Assembly (NCBI GenBank): GCA_009869945.1
Contig: WIXG01000531.1
Span: forward strand, 1 to 42,893
Direction: 5' to 3'
DNA length: 42,893 nucleotides
From: Mesaphorura yosii
Taxonomy: Eukaryota > Arthropoda > Collembola > Poduromorpha > Tullbergiidae
A model generated the notes under the pieces. That model did not search any database. It had not been told where the DNA came from and saw only the letters and a list, made by a program, of their open reading frames with translations. Below, one piece after another: positions 2,326-35,935 of the stretch. Every line of letters begins with the position of its first letter. Positions within the stretch are counted from its first letter, which is position 1. The translations under genes were made by a program, and so were the position numbers.

Positions 2326-4124
2326 CTAACTCGTCGTGACCTCCACCGTCATTTGAACGGGAGGAACACTGGGTGGCGTGGCTGCGGAGGAGTTTTCGCA
2401 GCTGCAGCTGGAGTTGGACGAGTCGGCGGAGAGAGACTGGCAGTCCTTGAAGCACGCCGAGTCATGGTGTTTGTTCAGATACGACTTCAGGGCGAAGGAC
2501 TTTTTGCAGCGCTTGCAGGCGTAGTTTTTGGTGGACGAGTGAGTCTGCAGATGGGCGCGCAGGTTGGAGCGGTCCGCAAACGCTTTCCCGCAGGCACACG
2601 TGTACGGTTTCTGGAAACAAAACAAAAGTGCATTTGTTAGGAATGGATCGCTGCGTTCAGGCTAGGTAACTTCTGGGTTACCTCTCCCGTGTGACTGCGC
2701 ATGTGTCCTTGGAGGAGCCACGGACGTGAGAAGGCCTTGCCGCAGACCTCGCAGACGTGATGAAGATTGTGGGTGAGGATGTGCATGGCCAGCGCCGGCA
2801 TGCTGACGTACGCCTTGCCGCAGGTGGAGCAACGCTTGGCGGAGTGCGAGTCGAGGCTGCGGTGTGTCTGCTTGTGGCGGGACAAGTTGGACGACGTGGC
2901 GTAGTTCTTGCCGCATTCTGAACAGACAAACCGGGCTTTTGAGTCGACCGGGCAGCTGTCCGAGTCGGAGTCAGCCGTACTCTTCTTGCACGCATTCACG
3001 TCGTCCTGCGTCGAGCCACTTTCTGCTAAGGCTGTGGCCTTGCGTTTGGAGCGACCGTCCGAAACAACGAACGAGTCGTACGCATATGAGACGACTTTCT
3101 CGCATCGTCGCGACTCGCCTTCACCGGACTCTGGAAGACCGCACTCGGCTCCTGGCGCACTCGGGCCCTCTGCCTCGGCTTGGTTCGTTGGGTCGGGGCA
3201 CTCCGACTTGATTTGAGCATCTGGCGAGCTGTTTCGCGGGTTGGGCAGGTGACCAGGAGTTGAGCTGTCGAAAGTGCTGTACATTTCCGCCTCGCACTGT
3301 GAGGAGTTTGAGGAGACGGGAGACACGGAGGCGGAGGATGGCGGCGTCGGCGGCATGAGCGGCAACGAAGCGCTGAGGTCGAGAATGGCGTGTGCGGTGG
3401 AGAGATCTTCCGCTCGTCGTTCGAACATGGCCGAGCAGACAGACTGCAACCGCATCTTCTCCTCCTTGACCGCCGCCACGCATTCCGGGAGGCGATACGG
3501 GCGATAAATGTCTCTGTTCTTTTGCGGCAAGTATCTCAGGCGGTACGACTGTGACCAGGTTCTGATGAGAAACGGAGAGTGGTAGTCCGCGCCCGTGCTG
3601 GACGGCTTGCTCGCACTCAAAAGCGTCTGCGGAGGAGTCTCCGGCGACGCAGAGACGGAAGGCGACGAGTCATGCACGTAGCCTGCAACGAGAAAGAAGC
3701 GAAATTAAAAGACATGAACAACTGCGCCCAACCAACAGCTCCCTCTGCTTTTGGATTGCTCACCATTAAAGAAGACGGTCACTTTTCCAGCGGTGGGGAC
3801 AGGCAACCAAGAGGGAACGGGGGAGGTGCACTTTTTGCCCGCTCCCACGCAGTCGCTCACTTGCTCGGTGGCGTCCGCTGTCGTTGTGGCGTTCGTATCA
3901 CGCTTTTGAGGTGGAGACTTCGAGAGGCCAACTGTTTTGTTGCATTTATTGCTAGGTTTATTACAAGATTTCGTTGTGTCGTTATTGGCGTTTCCGTTTA
4001 TTGCTATTGTGGGTGACGACGGTGTGAACTTTTCTTTCGTTGTGTCTGAGGTTTCAGGTACTGCGGGTGGAAGCTTTCTCTCGAGGGCCTGCTTCCACTT
4101 CTTAGCCATTAAACAGCGTGGCAT
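2326..4124 (-). CDS. scrt: Scratch-type Snail-family C2H2 zinc-finger transcriptional repressor
   Basis: Three exons: 4124-3764, 3682-2682 and 2610-2326; phases agree, giving 548 residues. The chosen start gives MPRCLMAKKW, a SNAG repression motif at the extreme N-terminus, as Snail/Scratch proteins require; in-frame codons upstream were therefore excluded. A long Ser/Pro-rich middle precedes five zinc fingers from about residue 372. Finger linkers carry the Scratch-specific blocks YATSSNLSRHKQTHRSLDS, KAYVSMPALAMH and FALKSYLNKH. The last finger ends in H-x4-C, as usual for the family. Finger 4 is odd: Cys459-Ala-Cys461 has one residue between the cysteines instead of two. Known role: nuclear repressor binding E-box-like sites in neural precursors. 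Family assignment is very secure; the exact ortholog is an inference. Confidence 0.93.
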
Positions 4125-5252: not shown

Positions 5253-7178
5253 ATGAGATTCTCTGTACTAGCATGCCTCTTGCTCCCCATGCTCCTCGGG
5301 GTCTCTGCCCAGGAGGAGCCCGAGTGGCGAAGGGAGGTGTTGGATCCTCGCTACACTGTCGAATGGCGGTCAGACTTCGAGACGAAGCAGCTTGAGTTCC
5401 TCGTCAGGGCCAACACGACCGGATTCGTGGGCTTCGGCCTGTCGGTCGGCGGAACCATGAACGGGGCAGATATCGTCATCGGAGGAGTCCACCCAGACGG
5501 AACAAAGTACTTTGCTGTAAGCAAAACGAATCAAGTAGCATTAAGCAGCTGTGCTCAATCATCTAACAAGCCGTGCTTAATTAAGACGATTTTCTCTTAG
5601 GACTACCACGGTACAGGGAACACAGCACCCGTCCTCGACGAGCGGCAGAATTGGGAATTGATTGACGCGACAGAGGCTGCGGGAGTGACGACTCTGCGCT
5701 TCACTCGCCTCATGGACACATGCGACGACCACGACGAGCCAGTCACCGCGGGCACACTCAAACTCATCTGGGCACTTGGTACCACAGACACTCTCGCCCA
5801 GCACCTGCCAACAAACCGCGGAGCACTGGCAGTCAACATGCTCGACCCGCCCCTGCCACCCGTCGACCTCTCGCAGTTCGAGAAGGAGGTTGTGGGCATG
5901 GACTACGCCCTTCAGCCGAAGGACACGGTGTACTGGTGCACCATCCACCGCAGAGTGCCCAGGGACGGCAAATCCCACATCGTAGCCTTCAGACCCATTC
6001 TGGACACGCCAGAGGCGCTGAAGCACACACATCACTTCAACATGTACACGTGCAGGGGCGCCGACCTCGATTCCGCCCTCTCCGACTATGTGGGGAGGGG
6101 CATGGACTGCCACGACCAGTACCTGCCCAGGTGGCACTGTCAGAGCAACCTCTACGCCTGGTCCTTCGGCGGCAGACTCCTAGTCTTCCCTGACGACATC
6201 GGCTTCCCCTGGGGAGAAGACGCCACCGAGTACTACCTCTTCGAGGCGCATTTCGACAACCCCGCCCTCGAAGAGGGCAAGCAGATCCAGACGGGCGTCG
6301 AGATTTTCCACACGAAGGAGCTTCGGGAGCACGAGGCTGGAATGCTCTCCATCGGCCACGCCACGTCGCCCACGCTCATGATTCCACCACGCACGGGCGA
6401 CTGGTCCCTCGTCGGTCACTGCAGCTCAGCCTGCACCGCGGCCAGCGTCACTCCTCCCTCGGGCATTCAACTGTTCAACGCCAACCTGCACGCGCACAAG
6501 TCTGGGCGAAAGATGAAGCTGCGACAGTTCCGTTCCGGGCAGGAGTTGCCGTCTGTGGCGAAGGACTATACGTACGACTTTGACTTCCAGGAAAACAGAC
6601 CGCTGCGGGAGGCGGTGACTCTGCTGCCGGGCGACCACCTCAGTCTGGAGTGCACCTTCGACTCCAACTGGCGCGCCCCGCACGCGATCATCGGGGGCAT
6701 TTCCACGCAGGACGAGATGTGCATGGTCTTCCTTTTCTACTACCCCAAAGTGCCCCTCGAGGCTTGCTTCAGCGGATACCCAACCACCTCACTCCTCGCC
6801 CGTCTCGGCTTGGAGGAGGTCGGACCAGGCTCCAACCCAAACATCCTTAAGCCCGAGAAGTGGGCAGGGATCTCCTTCAACCAGTTCCTGACCAACAACG
6901 TGAGCTGGACCGAGGCTGAGAAAAGTGCTCTCCTGCAAGAGCTGCGGTACGGCGTCCACGACGACCTCTGCCACACGCTGGACATTCCTACGCTGGGTCT
7001 GGACGGAGTGCCTCTGCCTGGAGTTCGTGCCCTGGCCGGGATCAGCTACCCAGACTTCGAGAAGGAGTACCAGGAGGAGAGCGCCGACTGCAAGCGAGAT
7101 GGCTCGGCAGCGATCGTCATCGTCTCTCCGCTAACTTTCGGGGCTGCCCTCCTGCTTCTTGTGAGATTCGTCTTCTAA
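5253..7178 (+). CDS. MOXD1: DBH-like copper monooxygenase (MOXD1 type)
   Basis: Two exons, 5253-5516 and 5601-7178, joined in phase 0, encode 613 residues, the length I recall for vertebrate MOXD1. A signal peptide (residues 1-19, ending VSA) leads into a DOMON domain (about 25-160), followed by the two copper type II ascorbate-dependent monooxygenase domains. Copper ligands are visible: His232-His233 in HTHHFNM and His305 in LFEAHF for the first site; His385/His387 in NLHAHKSGRK and Met461 in DEMCM for the second. The C-terminus ends in a hydrophobic stretch, suggesting a membrane or GPI anchor. The family hydroxylates small substrates in the secretory pathway; the natural substrate of MOXD1 is unknown. 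All catalytic residues are intact, so the enzyme is probably active. True dopamine beta-hydroxylase or tyramine hydroxylase is less likely because of the C-terminal anchor. Confidence 0.92.
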
Positions 7179-8845: not shown

Positions 8846-9132
8846 CAGCTGTGCTCTCAGATGCTTTAGATGTTCGCAATTAAGTATTCAGTGTCATGCA
8901 CTAACGAACATTAGCACTCATGAAAGACTGTTCAGTGGAAAAATTCGGAACTTGTAGTCAATGTAGACGACGCAATACAGTATAATGGAAAGTAACAATG
9001 CGATCTTAATTTATTGAAACACAAAACGTCTCACTGAGCGTTGAGCATGGTACAATGGCATATTTGCATATCTGGGAAATTGAGTAACAGTGTCAAAAGT
9101 AAAAAAGTGCGTACGTTTGAAGAATTGCATGT
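8846..9132. other. Short convergent spacer
   Basis: It holds the 3' UTR of the CRAL-TRIO gene and, on the minus strand, the probable polyadenylation signal of the zinc-finger/SMC gene (plus-strand TTTATT at 9010-9015, about 120 bases after its stop). No coding signal. Confidence 0.5.
9010..9015 (-). terminator. Polyadenylation signal of the zinc-finger/SMC-like gene
   Basis: Plus-strand TTTATT reads AATAAA on the minus strand, about 120 bases past the TGA at 9133. This placement supports ending the gene at 9133 rather than at the earlier in-frame TAA near 9442. Confidence 0.5.
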
Positions 9133-12100
9133 TCATGGTAAGGACATGAAGAACTGGCCCTGAGAGTCTTCTCTCTCGTGAATGACATCGATTAATACTG
9201 GCAGAGCAGATCTTGGAAAACTAAACTCAAATTGGCAGGAGGAGTGCGCGTCCGAAAGCATGACGGGGCATGATTCGATGACACGCCAAAATGAAACATA
9301 CAGTCCGAGCACGACCAGCTTTTTCTTCCCACCTGACATGCCCTTCCAAATATTCCTTGCATCATCCCTAAAATCAAAGCATTCAGAGCAACAGAATTTA
9401 TAAAGGTGCATCGCTATTCCACAGATTCCACAGGTGAGCTCTTACGGAGTCGAGGGAGCTGGCTGAGTCGGTGAGTCCTTCATCCACGCAATGAGTTCCT
9501 GACTCCCGTCGTCTTTACTCCCGAGAAGTATGTCACCCTAGAAAGAAGCACAGTTTGGTGAGTCTTACCGATGGCATACCACCAACAAAACAGAAAGAAG
9601 CAAATGGCAAATCGGTAAATGGCGTACCGTATAATTTTGTGCCTGAAGGAATTTGCAAAATGGGACTCGCATTTCTTCGAGTATGTCTGAAGCAGGGTCA
9701 GTTTGCTCACTGGATGATTGTAGGAGCCGTATTTTCTGTTGAGTTTGACCAATTTGAACACACACTTAAACACCCGTACGCTAATCTAATCCGTAAGAAT
9801 ACTTCTGTAATTTATTTGAAAATATTGGCTACCTGCAGCGTGTCCTTCACAAACTTGTACTGCTCATTCGCGCTCTTCAGTTCAATAGCGTGGGCAACCT
9901 GCAGTTGGCGAAGCTTTGCGTTTTCTGGATAGCTCCTCTTCAGACTGGCATTTAAGAAGGAAATCCTCTGAAAGAGAAGGCGATATATTGAACTTTAAAT
10001 GCAAATAAATGGAGTCAAGACTGCCTGAGTGCTCCCTTGCTCACCTGCTCGCGAGATGCTAAATCTGTCGAAAATGCTTCATTTTGATATTTCAGTTGCC
10101 TGATGCTGAGCGAAATTTTGTCTTCCTCTTCTTTGACAATTTCCCAGAAGATGTTGTCGCTACAAATGAGAACGAGAGTAAGAAGAGAAGGACTCACTTA
10201 CGCTTACTTCACTCACCAGGCCACGAAATTATCTGACAAGTACTGCAAGTTTTCTGTGCCGAGGACCATCACCCTCCACGCATACTCGGGAATTAATGAA
10301 CTTATCAAATCCTTGAATTGTGTTCGGGAAAGACTCTTCGATTTCACCTTTTCGTAAGCAATCTCGATCGGGGAGTCTTTCAAAGAGATTCCTTTTTGAA
10401 ATTTTCTTATGATCTTTAGCTCGGATCCGTATTTCCGTCTGAGCTCTTTGTGGCCATTTAAATTCAGCTTCATTTCAATCAGACCCTCCATCTCGCCATG
10501 TCGAACAACATCTATAACGCAACGACGACACGCTCTTTGAAATCTTACGGATTGCAGTTCAGTTCAGTGCCGAGGACTTACCGTTGAGATCGAGGTCGCC
10601 AAGACTCGTGAGATCAAACAGAACGTCGTATCCCAAGCCGACCAAACACGCGACAATTGTGGTAGTTTTCCCTCTGCCTCCAGGCACCTCGTAAAGATTG
10701 GAGTTTAGTTTTATAATTCTCTCGTCAATCGCCTTGAAATTGACTATTTTGACCTTGGAAATCAGTTGCTACAACGACAATGAAAGCACCACTTGGAATC
10801 AATTGATTAAAACGGACATTCTTGCTTGCCTACCTGAACTCTCTCTTTCAGGATATCGTCACTTTCTGAAATTTGCGGTTCTGCCTTTTCCAAGTTGTTC
10901 AAACTCGTTGCAGCCTTGGGCACTGTTTGAGTCTCCGGCTCGTCAATTGTCTTCGCCTCGTCGTCTGGATTATTGACCAAGTAATCTTCTTGTGTGTTCT
11001 GAGGCCGAGCTAGATTTTTTCCTGGACTGTCAGCACTTTTTCCGTGGTGGTTTCCTCTTTTGTAATGGAGCACGAGATTGCCCTTGCAGAACGTTGCATA
11101 GCTGCACATTTGGCACTTGTACCAGTCCACAAATCTCTGGCACCCGTGTTGATGGACTTGATGTCTTACCCATCTATCAATCGAGCGAAATGCAGCAGGG
11201 CAGATTAAACACTTGAAGTACAAATAAACTCGTTTTCCTGAGGGAGTGGTGGAACTTGTTTGGTAGGTAAACCGCGGATTTCCTGCCCTGATTTCAGCCG
11301 TTTCTGCTTCCGAAAGCAACGCGAACTCGGTCTGCAAGCATTCAACCATTGCTGAATATCGAAGCGGAGTGGCAAAGCGAGATGTCTTCTTTTGCTTCGC
11401 CTGTTGAAAGTGAAATGATACGACAGATTTGGTTCTCTGCCACTGGTTTGTTCCTGAAAATCATTACGTACGTCTTATCGATATGCAAATGAAGTGAATG
11501 ATTTACTACTTTAGACTACTTTTATTTGCTACTTTAGAAGCATTGCGTCACGTACGTGTTTTGTGAAGGCTTCTGTGCTTCCACGTTGTCCAGTAGGTAT
11601 TTGAACCAAAAGAACAGCTCTCACACATGTACTTAAATGCTCCTCCATGACACTTCATGTGCTGCTCCAAATCATAAGCTCGGAAATATTTGTGATGACA
11701 CTCGGGATCCTCACATCTCAACGTGGGAAGAGGCTTTCCAATTTCAGGATTCGCTGTGTCTATATTTTTAATCCATTTCTCATTGTGAAAGAATTTTGAT
11801 CAAATACATGCGAGATAGGCTTTACCTGGTGCCTTCGTAATCAGAACTTTATTTTGCTTCTGTTGCAGCTGAGTGTGGCCTCCTTCGTGCCAGCTTAAAT
11901 GCAAATCAAGGAAACCCTTCTGAGGTGACGCGTAATCGCAGTAAGTGCAACCGAATTGGTCATTCGAGCCGTGGCGTCTCATATGCTTAGATCGGTTAAT
12001 ACTACTTGTAAATACTTGTGGGCAATTTGAGTTTCTGCATTTGAAGGCTCTTCGCCTCCTACTATTGCTGGCGGCTTGGATACTTCGAAATGTTTCCATG

Positions 12101-13230
12101 TTATTAACAACGCCCCCACGAGCTAAACCGTCGGAGCTAAATATAATTAGCAGAAACAGAGAAAAACATTGAGTAAGTCTCAACTCACAATGGCTTGGTG
12201 CCGATTACCTGGGGTGAGTGACACTATGCCACCTAAACAAATGACTGACATCGGAGCTGTACGTGCACATATCGCATTGATACACTCGCTTAACATTGTG
12301 ATACTCTTCCATGTGCCATCTGAGTCTTTTGCGGTCACGTGCTTTCCAAGGACATTTAGGATCTAAACAAGGGTACACGCATTTTTTTTTCTTTCCAGGC
12401 AGCCGAAGACGCGTACCTGTATCACAAAACCAAACACTAAGAATCCAATCACGCGAGACTGAACCGTTCCCAACTTTTCAACAAACGAACTTACCTTTAG
12501 TTCTGCGGGCAGTCTGCCTTGCGAGTGGCTGTCTTGTACCACCTCCCTTCCGCTTGCCTTTGATCCCAAAGCGCTCAGGAAAGTGGCACTTACGATGACT
12601 TCCAATTACTTGGGACATTCGAGAGGAGAAGCTGCACTCCGGACACTTGTAAGGAAATTGCTTCACGTGGCCTTGTTTATGAGACAAGTAGCCCTCTAAT
12701 GAATACTGCACTGCTGGACAGTCATAACATTTGAATGTTTTCCTCTCCTGCTTTCTGAAGCCATCAATATATCTTATAGGATACTTGATGGCCGGATTTC
12801 CAGTGAACATTAATTCTTCTATCACTTGTGGCGATGAACTGTCCAAGTTTACGTGATCAGCGTCTAAAGTCAATGGATCTTCGCCTTCCTCGGCTCCCTC
12901 GACGCTCATCACCTCTTCTAATTCTTCCATCTCTTCATCGTCTTCACCGATATTTACTTCGTCAACGCAGATCTTCACGCGTTTAAGGGCTGACTGGTTG
13001 CATTCGCTTTCGGCTGGTTCTTCCATGCAAATATCTTCACTGAATCTCAGCCTATTAATTTGCATTCTGGCTGCTGCGGGTATGGGACCCACTTGGTACA
13101 AGCTCCCTGGGTATGTTCCAGCGTCATGATCATTGCTTTGCGAGTTGGGTGTAACCACATTAAATGGAGTGGCTTGAAAATGTCCATCTTCTTCGTCATC
13201 TTTATCTGTGTTGTGGTCGTGAATATCCAT
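9133..13230 (-). CDS. Five paired C2H2 zinc-finger modules fused to a miniature, degenerate SMC5-like ATPase head
   Basis: Twelve exons, all phases consistent, 1081 residues: 13230-12495, 12416-12209, 12136-11826, 11759-11556, 11453-10834, 10768-10582, 10511-10217, 10159-10045, 9967-9833, 9735-9628, 9537-9446, 9367-9133. Exons 1-5 each encode one pair of C2H2 fingers (pair 1 at about 168-216) after an acidic N-terminus. Exons 6-7 (694-854) resemble the SMC5/6 N-lobe: VKIVNFKAID, a P-loop-like VPGGRGKTT (Lys727) and RHGEMEGLIEMKL. Exons 8-9 give about 85 helical residues in place of the long arms and hinge. Exons 10-12 resemble the SMC5 C-lobe: NYTGDILL, signature MSGGK (1014-1018) and Walker-B-like CPVMLSDA. 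The catalytic Glu is Ala1044 and the Q-loop Gln is missing. Exon 6 has no ATG of its own. I infer a nuclear DNA-binding protein whose head may bind but not hydrolyse ATP. SMC5 is matched from memory. Confidence 0.72.
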
Positions 13231-14026: not shown

Positions 14027-17000
14027 ATGAAGATCGTCTGCGAAACATGCGACCACTCCTCTCGTACATTCTCCGACTGGATGGAGCATCTCGTCTCTTC
14101 ACGCCATCAAGTCCGCACGGCGCCTCTCGTCGTCTCGTGGCCCAAAAACTTGGTGCTCGTCGTGCGCCCGAAATTACCACAACGTACTCTCCAGTCGTCT
14201 GCCCATGACCTGATCTGGCACTTCAGCACTTGCGGCTTAATCGCGGATGTCCACTACCCGCAAGACATGAGCTTCTGCCTCATACACTTTGATGAAAGCG
14301 ATTCTTTGACCTATTCCACCAAATACGATGACATCAATGGGATCCGCCTCATCGTCAAGCGGTGGAATCAGCTGTCTCGGGCAGAGGGTATGTTTAATCA
14401 AACTAGCCAGAATGATTGTGTAATTGAGTTACTTACTCCTAATTAATTTCAGCGAACCAAATGATGGGCAACCCCTCACCACAACCGCAGTCACCTGCAC
14501 CTCCTCTAAACGTAGACGCCAGTAAGCGTAAGCCAAATCCCTCGCTTCCACAACCCACAGCAGCAGCATCAATTTCGGTAGGGGAGCCCGTAGAATCGCC
14601 ACCTGGCCAGCCACGCCCGCAACTGCCGCACACACCGCCACCCGCAGGTCACAGATACGTTCCTCCTTCATCCCTGCGGAATGGGGGAAGAGCGGCAGCA
14701 GCCCCAATTGCCTCACCATTCCCCAGCGCCCCAACTGCGAGCTTAAGCAATTCGAATGCGGCCGTTGACAAGAAAACTTCGACTCCTCCGCAACCAGGCA
14801 AGAGTGGAACGGCGGGAAAGGGCGCCGGGCCGAAGAAGACACGCGATGGGACGACCGAAGTTCCCATGGATCCATTCGAGCGACGTCACCTGGGCCTTTC
14901 GCGTCACCACGAGAACGCTGGACTGGACCTGGACCAGCAGTTGGTTCACTGGGTGCAGGAGGTCACACTTGCTGCTGACGACATGACTCGACGCAGCGTC
15001 GTGCTGGCCGACCTACAGCGCAGTCTGCAGAGCGACGAACGTGCTAAGAATGCTCTCCTGTTCCCGTTCGGCTCTTACATCACGGGTTTGGGCGATAAAG
15101 ACTCGGACCTCGACATTTACGTCAACTATCAGGGGGCGCAGATGGACCAAGACGAAGGCCCCCTGAACCAACCGCTTTCTGCGAACACCAAGCGCCAGCT
15201 CCTTGACATCACGAAAAGCATTCTGCGACGCCAGCGAGGCCGTTTCCAGCGCCTGCTCTCCATCCGCACTGCACGTGTGCCCATCCTCAAGGCGACTCAC
15301 TTTAGTGGCATCCAGATGGACCTTAGCTTCGAGAACATCACATCCGTCAAGAACTCGGAGTTGATCGCCTTCTATCAGTGCTTTGACCCGCGTGCGAAGT
15401 ACCTCATGCTATTTGTACGATACTGGGCCAAGTTCCACCGTCTCTCGGGCTCCGTCCTGATCAAGAACTACGCCCTTGTCCTCCTCGTCATCGTCTTCCT
15501 GGTCCGCAAAGGTCTCGCACCCTCCGTGCACACACTCCAGACACTCGCCAGCAAAAAGCTCCTCGTCGACAGCTGGAACGTCGGCTTCTCCACAGACATG
15601 CGACTCATCAGGGCTCGGATGAAAGAAAGACCCTGGTGCCCTGCAGGTGACGTGGAGGCCTGCGAGATCAGCCGCCGAACGCAGTACCCCACAGCGCGCT
15701 CGTTTCTTGCGATGGCTGCCGATTTCTTCGACATGTTTGGAAAGTTGGACTACTCGCAACTGGTCGTGTGCTCCCTCACCGCCGAGTTCTTGCCAAAGAC
15801 CCAGTTCGAGCCAGGCTACGAAGTGGAGCTGCCCTCTTCGCTGGATCTGTACAAGGCCTGGGCCTTCAAGCAGAGTCGGGAGACCCGCTTTGACGCACGA
15901 CGACCCTTCTGCCTGCAAGACCCCTTCCAACTCGACTTCAACGTGGGAACGTGCGTCAAACAAGAACTCATCGACGATTTTGCAGCATCCTGCGGGGAAG
16001 CCGCCACAGGAATCCGGGCCGTGCTTCAACAGAACGACCTCCAGAAGTCCTTGCTCTCCGTCCTCGTGGTGCGTCCGAAGAAACTGACCAAGGCAGAACG
16101 CCGTCGACTGCGGCGGACGCCCGGGCGGGCGGCTGCGGGGGCCAACGGAGTCCCAAACCAACCAATGTGCAGCTTCCGCCTGGTGCCTGGGCCTTACTTC
16201 AGCAAGGAAACTCTGTTCGTCAACTTCGGGACGAGTGAATTGGGGGAAGAGGATGAATCGCGGCTGATGTCGCTGTGGTGCATGTACGTGAAAGAATTTT
16301 TCAAGGCGCTGCTCACCGACGCATACAAGATGAAGGTCAGAGTGCTTGACCTGCCTCCGCCGGAGCCAGCCGATACTGAACCGCGCGACGAACATGAACC
16401 ACGCGAGAAGAAAGACAATACACTGGCTCCTTCCGGCACCAGCTCAGAGGCAGATGGAGACGAGGGAGGCCGACACAAACGCCGTCTACCTGAATCCCCG
16501 CCAAACGAGGAAGGGGCCGACATATCGAAAGAGGCAGGAGCGGCTCTGACAACAAAACCATTGCCGAAGATAGTGAAGACAGAAGCGACTGCTGCGAATG
16601 GAAATGAACAGGACACTGGCGAGCAAAAGATGGAGCACACGCCACGAGCCAACGAACAGATGGACTACGGGCCCGCCAAGTTGCAAGCACTCCTCTATGC
16701 ACTGCGTCAGATTCCGGCGTTGGAGGAGCACGCCAACGTCCGGCTGGCGGTGTCCGCCACGTGCCACCCGCTCTTCAACCAGAACCACAACCGTCTTGTC
16801 CAGCAGATTCGGAAGGAGGAGGATACGCAGGTAGGAGGAAACGGGACCAAAGATCTGGAGAACCCGTTCAGGCTGGAGGCAGAGGCGGCTTTGCGAGCTA
16901 CGACCAAGACCGCCAAGACGGAGTCACGCCGCGTGAAGGAGGTCACCTTCGAGGTGTTTGGACGGGTGGAGCTCGAGCGGAGGCGACGCGGGTCGACCGA

Positions 17001-17139
17001 GGCGATGAGTGTGGTTCCTGTGTTCGTGATCGAGGTGCGCCAGGATTTATTCTGCGCCTGGTTCTTGGCGAAGAAGTACTCGGAACTCCTCGAGCCGTAT
17101 CTGCAGCACCGCCTGCACCAGTGGATGCTCTCCGCCTAA
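14027..17139 (+). CDS. TUT1: TUT1/Star-PAP-like RNA nucleotidyltransferase
   Basis: Two exons, 14027-14387 and 14453-17139, joined in phase 1, encode 1015 residues. The ATG at 14027 starts directly before a zinc finger (CETCDHSSRTFSDWMEHLVSSRH reduced to Cys5-x2-Cys8 and two His), as in vertebrate TUT1. An RRM-like region follows (about 35-115), then a Pro/Ala-rich spacer, the polymerase-beta-like catalytic core and a PAP-associated domain. The catalytic triad is visible: Asp339 and Asp341 in SDLDIYV, after the FGS motif at 326-328, and Asp410 in QMDLSF. A strongly basic stretch near 663 looks like a nuclear signal, and an acidic Glu/Lys-rich insert follows. The family uridylates U6 snRNA or polyadenylates selected mRNAs in the nucleus. 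Which substrate is used here cannot be read. Longer than human TUT1 (about 874 residues) because of the spacers. Confidence 0.87.
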
Positions 17140-25662: not shown

Positions 25663-27268
25663 TTATAAATGCAACTCGTCTGCAATGCGGCTTGAATCGG
25701 TTGCATTTTTCGGCAAATCGTTTTCTTCATAATTGAGTCCTGTGAGGTCTCGTATTTCGTCCTGATCATACCTGTGTAGTAATTCGGACATTAATTACAG
25801 GACGTGGAATATAGTAATTCACGTCACCCAAACATTACCTGTCATCGTCTGATCCTGACTGCTGAGAGTTTGTTGACAGGTGTGAACCCGTGGACATTAG
25901 CGAATTCCTTGTCAAAGATCCTCGACGAGGAGTCAGGTGCTGATAGTTTGCTGGTCTCACAGTAATTATCAGATTCGAACTGTTTGCAACCCTGCAAATA
26001 GATAAAATAATTTTGACAATTAATATAATGAATGGGCTTCGATTGGGCCTTTTATTATGAACCTACATCATGTCAGTGACCTAAACGCAACACCAGGCGT
26101 TGTCAATATCGTCATAATCATGAAAGAGAAAATCCACATCATTAGCTCAATTTCAACACGTCATAGAAATGACTTCCCAGTAGCAAGATTACCTGATCAA
26201 GCGACTTTCCTGCGACCTCAATGCCATTCACTTCCAGCACTTCATCATTAACACCTACAACAATGAATATACCTCAAGTAAGTGTCTTTCATTTTAATTA
26301 TGACCAGCAAGTAGCATTCTTCAAGTTAATGTGAGACTGAAACATCGTACAAAGTCATAACTTTACCTAAAAGGCCTGTAGACTCTGCCAGTCCTCCGGG
26401 CACCAGCCTGAAATGGGAAATAGAAAACTTATGATTGATTCTCACAAGCGACTTCAAGAATAACAAACCTTGATATGAATATTCCAGGGACTTTTTCCAG
26501 GCCTTGAGATGTCACTCGAATAGATGTGCCATCTCTGATATAAAAGCCCAATGGCTTGTCAGATTCTTTGTGCTTCAATAACCGAACTCTTCGGCAAGTC
26601 TCAGGTACAATGTCCACATCGATTATTTGGGACACCTGCCTGAAGTCTTGCGGGTTGGAAATTGTCAATGGATGATATGAGTTCCTCAATTTAGGAGTTA
26701 ATATGGCGGATATTAGTGTTTTGTTCTTGTTGAGGTACTGTGCTTCAGTGTTCCCTTTCCTTTGGATAAGAAGGCGAAGTAACGGTCGTGAGTTCTGAAG
26801 GGCGATAGAGAAATTGTCGTCATTGTTGATGGGAAGCAAGTCGCCATCCTTAGGGTCCGTGTACGAAATTAGGAACGGGATGTCCTGAGTATGGTGCAAC
26901 TTCTCCAGAAGGGCATGGAATTCATCGAACGACGGCTTTGCACTTCTAGCCAGTGAGAAACGACGAAACTCGGCCTCAAACTGCAAACAAACCATAAAGT
27001 TGAAGATCGAATCTTTGTGCTGCTAATTTATTGTTGTGATTCTTGTGACAGAAAGGGGAAGTAGCGATTTCGGAGTAGGATAACAGAGCAGAAATAGGAA
27101 GGATAGAAGCGTAGAATACGATGACTAGGATTGGGCTCGCAATTTAGTGTTCGGTTCGGTCGAGCCGATGACCTGCCTCAACAGATTATTTTTGCGAAGG
27201 TGAAAGTTGTAACGCCAAATCTAACGTACCTTGCTTTTCACCTCAACCAACGGGGATAATGCCATCAT
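25663..27268 (-). CDS. par-6: Par6 cell-polarity scaffold (PB1, semi-CRIB, PDZ)
   Basis: Seven exons: 27268-27230, 26980-26469, 26407-26367, 26254-26193, 26080-26067 (14 bases), 25991-25839 and 25771-25663, giving 309 residues. The start MMALSPLVEVKSK fits the family N-terminus. Domains in order: PB1 (about 8-95, EAEFRRFSLAR, YTDPKDGDLLPINNDD), semi-CRIB (SNPQDFRQVSQIIDVD) and PDZ (KPLGFYIRDG, GIFISRLVPGGLAESTGLLG, VLEVNGIEVAGKSLDQVTDM). The tail retains the DEIRDLT block. The 14-base microexon supplies VTDM of the PDZ domain and is needed to restore frame. Par6 binds aPKC through PB1 and Cdc42 through CRIB-PDZ at the cell cortex to set polarity. Secure assignment. Confidence 0.95.
26067..26080 (-). 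other. par-6: 14-base microexon of Par6
   Basis: Flanked by an acceptor (TTTAG) and a donor (GTAGGT) on the minus strand. It encodes Val-Thr-Asp-Met plus two bases of the next Met codon. Leaving it out shifts the frame of the PDZ end; including it restores the conserved order [23 protein letters not shown]. Confidence 0.85.
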
Positions 27269-34542: not shown

Positions 34543-35935
34543 ATGCCGGCAATACGTCTACCCAAGCGAAAGAGCAGATGTGACGCTCCACATCCACAAA
34601 CGTTCAAGAAGACTAGCTCGAAGAGATCAAGACTCTGCCAGGTGCTGCTCCCAGCCCCCTTTGCTGATGACCGTGAAATGTGGAGTCTCATTTGTGAAGC
34701 CAACAATAAATACGTCAGATCAGAAAATATATTGAAGAATCATCCCGTCCTGAGCCCGCAGATGAGGGCTATTTTGCTGGATTGGATCATGGACGTATGT
34801 GAGGCTTATCACCTTCATCGAGAGACACTTCACTTAGCGGTAGATTACCTAGACAGATACCTTCTTACACACCAGAATGTTTTGAAGTCACACTTGCAGC
34901 TCCTCGGTAAGTTTTAAAAAGTTTTGTGCTTAGTACGCAATTGCAAACTCATTTGGAATAGACGGTCAACAAATGTTTATGCAAATTACAGGAATCACCT
35001 GCCTCTTTGTTGCTGCCAAAATCGAAGAGATTTACCCTCCGAAGTTGTCGATATTCTCTTACGTGACGGATGGAGCGTGTACAGAAAAGCAAATTCTGGA
35101 AATGGAGCTCGTCTTAATGAAGGCACTCAAGTGGAGGCTGAGCCCACTCACATCGGCAGGCTACTTGAACCTGTACCTGCAGCTGTGTGAGATCTCGAGA
35201 CACTCAGTTCTCTGTACCGAATTGCGCAGCTCCAAACACCCTGACTTGAAGCTCTTTAAGCCAACCTATCCTGGGGTGGAGTACGTACGTGCGGCGCGCA
35301 TGCTAGACCTTGCAACTTTAGATGTTTCCTCCTTGAAATTTTCGCACGCATTGTTGGCATCAGCTGCCTTGTATCACTTAAAAGGTAAGCAAAAACCAAG
35401 CATAAGACCTGGGTCTATCTTCAATGGGTACGAATGGCAAATGGGCTTTGTTAATTCTTGTAACTTATTCACCAGGACGAGATTCAGCTTTATCGGTGAC
35501 TGGCTATTCCTGGGAGCAACTTGCCCCTTGTGTGAATTTTATGGCACCCTACACTATGGTATGATCTTATCAACGTAATTGTCGAGAAAAGCGTTGACAG
35601 TAAAAAAAATTCAAAGTTCCAAAATGTTTTTGTTTAGGTACTGAGTAGAAATGAGATTCCTGACGTGCTCCCAGCTATAGAAAACGTTCCTGACGAGGAA
35701 CGGCATCTGGTCCAGTCACAGTGCGTCTCCTTGAAAATGCTAGTAAGCTAAAAACCCACCCAGCGAGACTTTAATCTATTTGGCCGAAGAAGGCTTATTT
35801 AATCTCTGCCCTTTTAATTTCAATTAGGATCAAGGGCAAGTCCTTGCAAACAGTTCCAAGCTCTGCAGCCCACTTCATGTTGGAGGACTCCTGACCCCAC
35901 CAAGCAGTACCGAGAGATCTTTTGGCAAACTGTAG
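34543..35935 (+). CDS. CCNE: Cyclin E
   Basis: Five exons: 34543-34906, 34992-35384, 35476-35558, 35638-35742 and 35828-35935, giving 350 residues. The basic N-terminus (LPKRKSRC, KKTSSKRSR) suggests nuclear localisation. The cyclin box holds MRAILLDWIMDVCEAYHLHRET, with LYL/DRYLLTHQNV, then LFVAAKIEEIYPPKL and YVTDGACTEKQI, which are cyclin E hallmarks, and LMKALKWRLSPLT. The second cyclin fold ends with FSHALLASAALYHL and GYSWEQLAPCVNFMAPYTM. Residues 336-342 read LLTPPSS, the Cdc4/Fbw7 phosphodegron (Thr338, Ser342). Cyclin E activates CDK2 at G1/S and is destroyed through SCF-Fbw7. The start may be further upstream (see the promoter entry). Secure assignment. Confidence 0.95.

Follow-up and report, generated by a model that had tools for sequence, protein, structure and literature searches.

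SMC proteins are known for their long arms and hinge, and the SMC5/6 complex is usually thought to act without sequence preference; the means by which it reaches particular DNA are still an open question. To our knowledge, the factors SIMC1–SLF2 and SLF1/2 carry no SMC head. They are described as SMC5/6 recruiters (PMC12656486), separate factors that direct the complex to particular DNA, and we use them here as a working comparison for the proposed role only.

The window analysed here, 42,893 nt long, is contig WIXG01000531.1 of the collembolan Mesaphorura yosii (C531 in an assembly of 93 Mb and 1127 contigs). It holds a gene that appears to encode one protein with ten C2H2 fingers followed by both lobes and both necks of an SMC6-type head. 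With SMC6 the predicted protein shares both head lobes, both neck helices, the exon layout and the intron phases, whereas it has neither arms nor hinge, carries N-terminal fingers and shows degenerate ATPase motifs. With C2H2 zinc-finger proteins it shares its paired C2H2 motifs, but here a C-terminal head is added and the Pfam finger models match below their cut-offs. Arms and hinge have thus apparently been removed, and head and necks kept and joined to fingers, in two old copies. We regard this architecture, together with the SMC6 origin of its head, as very probable.

Gene structure and zinc fingers

The gene occupies positions 13230..9133 of the minus strand as 12 exons separated by 11 GT–AG introns of 57–102 nt, and it reads as a single open frame, 1081 codons long and closed by TGA (Table 1), in agreement with the 12 phase-consistent exons proposed in the earlier note. 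Within residues 1–693, the pattern C-x2-5-C-x10-14-H-x3-6-H finds ten C2H2 motifs, one pair in each of exons 1–5. Across 2000 shuffles of these residues the mean was 0.14 motifs and the maximum 2, which upholds the five finger pairs described previously. Four Pfam C2H2 models match the protein, none of them above its cut-off, and DNA binding by the fingers is for that reason an assumption in what follows.

Table 1 Features of the finger–head gene in the window
Feature	Position	Strand	Remark
Exon 1	12495..13230	-	Start ATG, acidic N-terminus, finger pair 1
Exon 2	12209..12416	-	Finger pair 2
Exon 3	11826..12136	-	Finger pair 3
Exon 4	11556..11759	-	Finger pair 4
Exon 5	10834..11453	-	IR.GNP.FTY.T block (common to paralogue), finger pair 5, linker to head
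Finger/head intron	10769..10833	-	65 nt, phase 0, in-frame TAG at end
Exon 6	10582..10768	-	N-lobe start of SMC6-type head, without Met
Degenerate P-loop VPGGRGKTT	10661..10687	-	Two residues short; paralogue: GVHDCGKS
Exon 7	10217..10511	-	N-lobe; preceding intron phase 1, alignment column identical to SMC6b
Exon 8	10045..10159	-	N-side neck helix; corresponds to 109-bp SMC6 exon; preceding intron phase 2, as in SMC6a and SMC6b
Exon 9	9833..9967	-	45-residue stub replacing arms and hinge; phase-0 introns on both sides
Exon 10	9628..9735	-	C-side neck; corresponds to 114-bp exon of SMC6a, SMC6b and paralogue
Exon 11	9446..9537	-	C-lobe; preceding intron phase 0, column identical to SMC6a and SMC6b
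Exon 12	9133..9367	-	C-lobe, signature-like and Walker B-like stretches, stop TGA
Signature-like MSGGK	9325..9339	-	
Walker B-like VMLSDA	9247..9264	-	Glu absent
AATAAA, candidate poly(A) signal	9010..9015	-	120 nt beyond first base of stop codon

A diverged second copy

A search of the genome with the window head returned a diverged paralogue on contig C62, whose gene model was assembled by hand, exon by exon. The two heads are 38% identical. The order of parts is the same as in the window gene, namely finger pairs, a phase-0 intron and an arm-less head, and the nine C2H2 motifs of the paralogue form four complete pairs and one half pair, the gene model being incomplete at its 5′ end. Intron phases are identical throughout the two heads (0,1,2,0,0,0,2); in the finger part they agree at three of four introns and differ at one. 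The best-conserved exons are exon 9 and exon 12 (44%).

Constraint was judged by codon-position differences in preference to a Ka/Ks value. Over 383 head codons, the two copies differ at 0.35 of second positions and 0.64 of third positions; the LWL85 estimates for the head are dN 0.55 and dS 2.8, and NG86 gave no dS for this pair. Because second positions differ far less than third, the head has been subject to constraint on its protein sequence. For the fingers (27% identity), where second positions differ by 0.53 and third positions by 0.69, the codon positions offer much weaker evidence of constraint than those of the head. Together, the existence of this second diverged copy suggests that the combination of zinc fingers with an arm-less head has been retained by evolution. 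Head searches of the genome yielded these two finger–head copies, on C531 and C62, and no third, the counts being lower bounds; their other matches were one on C8 at chance level (E = 3.98) and a finger match on C154 (E = 0.02). A finger search found further C2H2 places, the best on C144 (E = 8e-5).

The head and its lost arms

Residues 694–1081 match the Pfam SMC_N model across both lobes with E = 0.0022 and 17.9 bits, below the cut-off of 40, and they score 33.1 bits against an SMC6-head profile. The two lobes of an SMC-type head claimed earlier are therefore supported, the Pfam match spanning both of them at a sub-cut-off score. The P-loop, signature, Q-loop and Walker B have established functional roles in the ATPase, and the order P-loop, signature, Walker B is common to SMC proteins generally. 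What the earlier note took for the order expected of SMC5 is thus unspecific, and profile and intron evidence favours SMC6. The three motifs that it named, VPGGRGKTT, SGGK and MLSDA, are all present, but all are degenerate. Compared with the SMC6 rows, the P-loop of the window head has two residues fewer, and it does not fit GxxxxGK[ST], the paralogue having a full Walker A at this point. At the signature the window has MSGGK and the paralogue LVGHR, where the SMC6 rows show LSGGE/C/K-type sequences. Walker B in the window lacks the Glu that comes after Asp in the SMC5 and SMC6 rows, and the window head and the paralogue alike have lost both this Glu and the Gln expected at the Q-loop. The window head accordingly does not have the full SMC6 set of an intact Walker A, an intact signature and a Walker B that includes Glu. 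Since P-loop, signature, Q-loop and Walker B are all altered, ATP-driven dimerisation is unlikely, which tells against the ATP-driven form of the dimerising head suggested earlier. The head is probably an ATPase-dead, cut-down copy of an SMC6 head.

From the codon split between exons 7 and 8 to exon 11 there are about 119 residues, both necks counted, and arms and hinge are represented by one exon of 45 residues in the window (exon 9) or 49 in the paralogue. Measured from neck exon to neck exon with introns counted, the distance is 310 nt in the window gene and 296 nt in the paralogue, compared with 2944 nt in SMC6a and 3237 nt in SMC6b, the two SMC6 genes of this genome. About 2.6–2.9 kb of genomic DNA in the arm and hinge region is thus absent relative to SMC6, and the proposal that arms and hinge are essentially gone holds. 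A hinge profile was dropped as evidence for hinge loss: it was also without a match at the SMC6a, SMC6b and SMC5 loci, and length alone therefore counts here. If entire exons flanked by phase-0 introns were dropped, the frame would be preserved, and this could have been the route to an arm-less head.

SMC5/6 genes elsewhere in the genome

The genome contains a separate, apparently full-length SMC5 gene on contig C8. Its locus was found by an AAA_23 family search; a DNA pattern for DEINQGMD, used to seek SMC5 with at most one mismatch, gave no match because SMC5 has an intron at that point. Two diverged SMC6 genes, named by their PDB matches, lie on C61 (L021) and C65 (L023), about 3 kb separating the N from the C lobe in each, and three separate Nse4_C matches exceed the cut-off (C176, C414 and C457). 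Subunits of SMC5/6 may thus be multiplied in this animal. Judging by their motifs, we take two further loci, on C42 (L020) and C44 (L022), to be SMC3-like, and a locus on C12 is presumably Rad50-like.

Origin of the head

The head was compared with an SMC6-head profile, built from the two SMC6 genes of this genome plus human and yeast pieces, and with an SMC5-head profile, built from the one SMC5 of this genome plus human and yeast pieces. The SMC6 profile scored higher than the SMC5 profile for the window head (33.1 versus 11.8 bits) and for the paralogue (39.7 versus 15.3 bits), an advantage of 21–24 bits; among 100 shuffles the highest scores were 1.1 and 4.3 bits, the former for the window head with the SMC6 profile. 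With SMC6a removed from the SMC6 profile, the scores were 31.2 bits (window) and 31.4 bits (paralogue). Profile–profile comparison also leans towards SMC6 (97–98.5% versus 95.5–97.4% probability). Pairwise BLASTP was weak, the top piece for the window head being the genome's own SMC5 (E = 0.033), and phmmer of the window head alone against the PDB returned no SMC, its single match being a retron protein (E = 0.083). A two-row profile of window and paralogue found Rad50 as its best PDB match, and not SMC6, at a non-significant E = 0.023; exon boundaries and profile scores favour SMC6 over Rad50.

At six places, one of them shared with SMC6b only, exon boundaries of the head agree by position or by phase with those of the SMC6 genes of this genome. 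The first head intron lies at N column 75 in phase 1 in the window gene, the paralogue and SMC6b and is missing from SMC6a; the nearest SMC5 intron is two columns away and in phase 0. The second head intron has phase 2 in all four genes, its position in the pair differing by two columns from that in the two SMC6 genes. The exons equivalent to exon 8 measure 115, 115, 109 and 109 nt and all end in phase 0. Those equivalent to exon 10, 108 nt long in the window and 114 nt in the paralogue, SMC6a and SMC6b, begin in phase 0, and all four have their end at C column 49, again in phase 0. The last head intron, in phase 2, lies within eight columns of its position in the SMC6 genes, and SMC6a has two extra introns that are absent from the pair. 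None of the three SMC5 introns mapped, all of them in the N lobe, agrees in both column and phase, and the SMC5 C lobe is one uninterrupted frame through both C-lobe intron positions. Two sequence stretches, KYGSELKIIR and VSFWRVIESCP, align with SMC6 stretches as well. By profile scores and exon boundaries, the head is nearer to SMC6 than to SMC5.

In an unrooted tree of nine rows, with long branches, a branch with support of 74/71 (not starred) separates the four SMC6 rows from the pair and SMC5. By path length the rows nearest to the pair are those of SMC6, and the AU test does not reject a topology that unites the pair with the SMC6 of this genome (p-AU 0.186). As proof of an SMC6 origin the tree is indecisive. 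The label 'SMC5-like' given to the head in the earlier note is not borne out, as profile scores and exon boundaries favour SMC6 and the tree does not decide.

Alternative explanations

Fingers and head could belong to two adjacent genes, a zinc-finger gene and a separate arm-less SMC6-head gene downstream, possibly in an operon-like arrangement, but we think this unlikely. It would fit with the stop at 10809-10807, reached eight codons after read-through of the exon 5 donor, and with the paralogue, in which read-through stops at 5489-5491 (L024) and an ATG at 5551 is in frame with the head exon; given that ATG, the paralogue by itself would permit a separate head gene. The two frames would then lie about 40 to 60 nt apart. 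Splice scores, compared over 32 introns of this gene, the paralogue, SMC5 and SMC6, cut both ways: the acceptor between exons 5 and 6 is ordinary to weak (rank 8 of 32 in ascending order; 7.4% of 2902 AGs reach its score), whereas the donor is strong (rank 28 of 32; 0.6% of 2623 minus-strand GTs). Several further sites in the hand-built gene models are weak, some of them more so than this acceptor: they occur at the E9/E10 acceptor of the window gene and, in the paralogue, at the p4/p5 and p8/p9 donors and the p2/p3 and p7/p8 acceptors. Against two genes stands exon 6 of the window, which contains no Met and is immediately preceded by an in-frame TAG, yet shares 37% identity with the paralogue across 62 residues. 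A complete window head therefore requires splicing to an upstream coding exon, and exon 5 sits 65 nt away, in phase, across an intron that contains neither AATAAA nor ATTAAA. The phase-0 finger/head junction is moreover common to both copies. The same order in the paralogue, the startless exon 6 and the strong donor lend support at the level of sequence to a single product, as the earlier note had supposed.

The remaining alternatives concern the head within that single protein. Degenerate ATPase motifs, lost arms and a deletion in the P-loop would suit a dying SMC6 pseudogene lying in frame behind a zinc-finger gene by chance, but this is very improbable given two copies whose heads are 38% identical, with frames open across every head exon and second codon positions much more conserved than third. 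Equally little credence goes to derivation of the head from SMC5. SMC5 does share an ABC head of the SMC kind and a weaker profile match, it supplies the best BLASTP piece for the window head and it falls with the pair on one side of the weak tree branch; it nevertheless scores lower with both copies, shares none of its three mapped introns in both column and phase, whereas the pair agrees with SMC6 genes exactly at two columns and by phase at others, is farther than the SMC6 rows by tree path and is present in this genome as a separate gene. Retention of ATP binding or hydrolysis, with ATP-dependent dimerisation, is somewhat less improbable, though still distinctly unlikely. In its favour, Walker A is complete in the paralogue, the P-loop Lys and a Walker B Asp persist in both copies, and the SGG of the signature survives in the window, but the Walker B Glu and the Q-loop Gln are missing from both copies, both signatures depart from the SMC6 type and the window P-loop is two residues short.

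Database and literature searches

No fusion of C2H2 fingers with an SMC head surfaced in the protein database or among the literature matches listed, in which subscription journals are thinly covered; the earlier statement that no description of such a fusion was known stands to that extent. Candidates in the protein database were chosen by shared five-residue words, which limits its reach. The 388-aa head matched none of 4718 candidates, although the length limits set there could have kept a fused relative from view. When residues 520-1081 were scored, the window protein matched none of the 7994 candidates sharing most words, and the paralogue scored on 587-1001 matched none of 6418.

Proposed role

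The structure of the gene allows us to propose a role for the protein that joins a finger array to an arm-less head derived from SMC6. We suggest that an SMC6 gene lost its arm and hinge exons, leaving both lobes and both necks behind the fingers, and that the fingers would anchor the protein at particular DNA sites. There the head, having lost residues that an SMC pair needs to hydrolyse ATP normally, may act as a docking surface that offers SMC6-type contacts, the neck for the Nse4 kleisin and the head face for SMC5. Subunits of SMC5/6 could then be recruited to those sites, or held there non-productively. On this explanation as a whole our judgement is evenly balanced. Partners for it exist, because one SMC5, two SMC6 and three Nse4_C matches occur in the same genome, and it is possible that the head docks on, or competes for, them. 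More tentatively, the protein might work as a DNA-bound false SMC6 head that recruits SMC5/6 subunits or keeps them idle. It may be doubted, but is worth considering, that such proteins form a new class of SMC5/6 regulator: directed to DNA sites by their fingers, they would present their hinge-less, ATPase-dead head as a false SMC6 partner and so seat SMC5/6 at chosen loci or block it there. If the head does dock on SMC5/6, it would provide a natural test of which SMC6 surfaces are sufficient to bind partners, and it would exemplify control of that complex by DNA sequence.

Neighbouring genes and other observations

Elsewhere in the window, a further C2H2 frame at 2637..3704 on the minus strand has the look of a Scratch/Snail-type factor, and an 898-codon frame at 14443..17139 on the plus strand is presumably a terminal nucleotidyltransferase or poly(A) polymerase. 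We take the frames at 26429..27022 (minus strand) and 34934..35578 (plus strand) to resemble PAR-6 and cyclin E, respectively. In the genome at large, the cuticle domain Chitin_bind_4 matched at 66 places, as would suit an arthropod. The TTR-52 family had zero matches, as it did in the control genomes.
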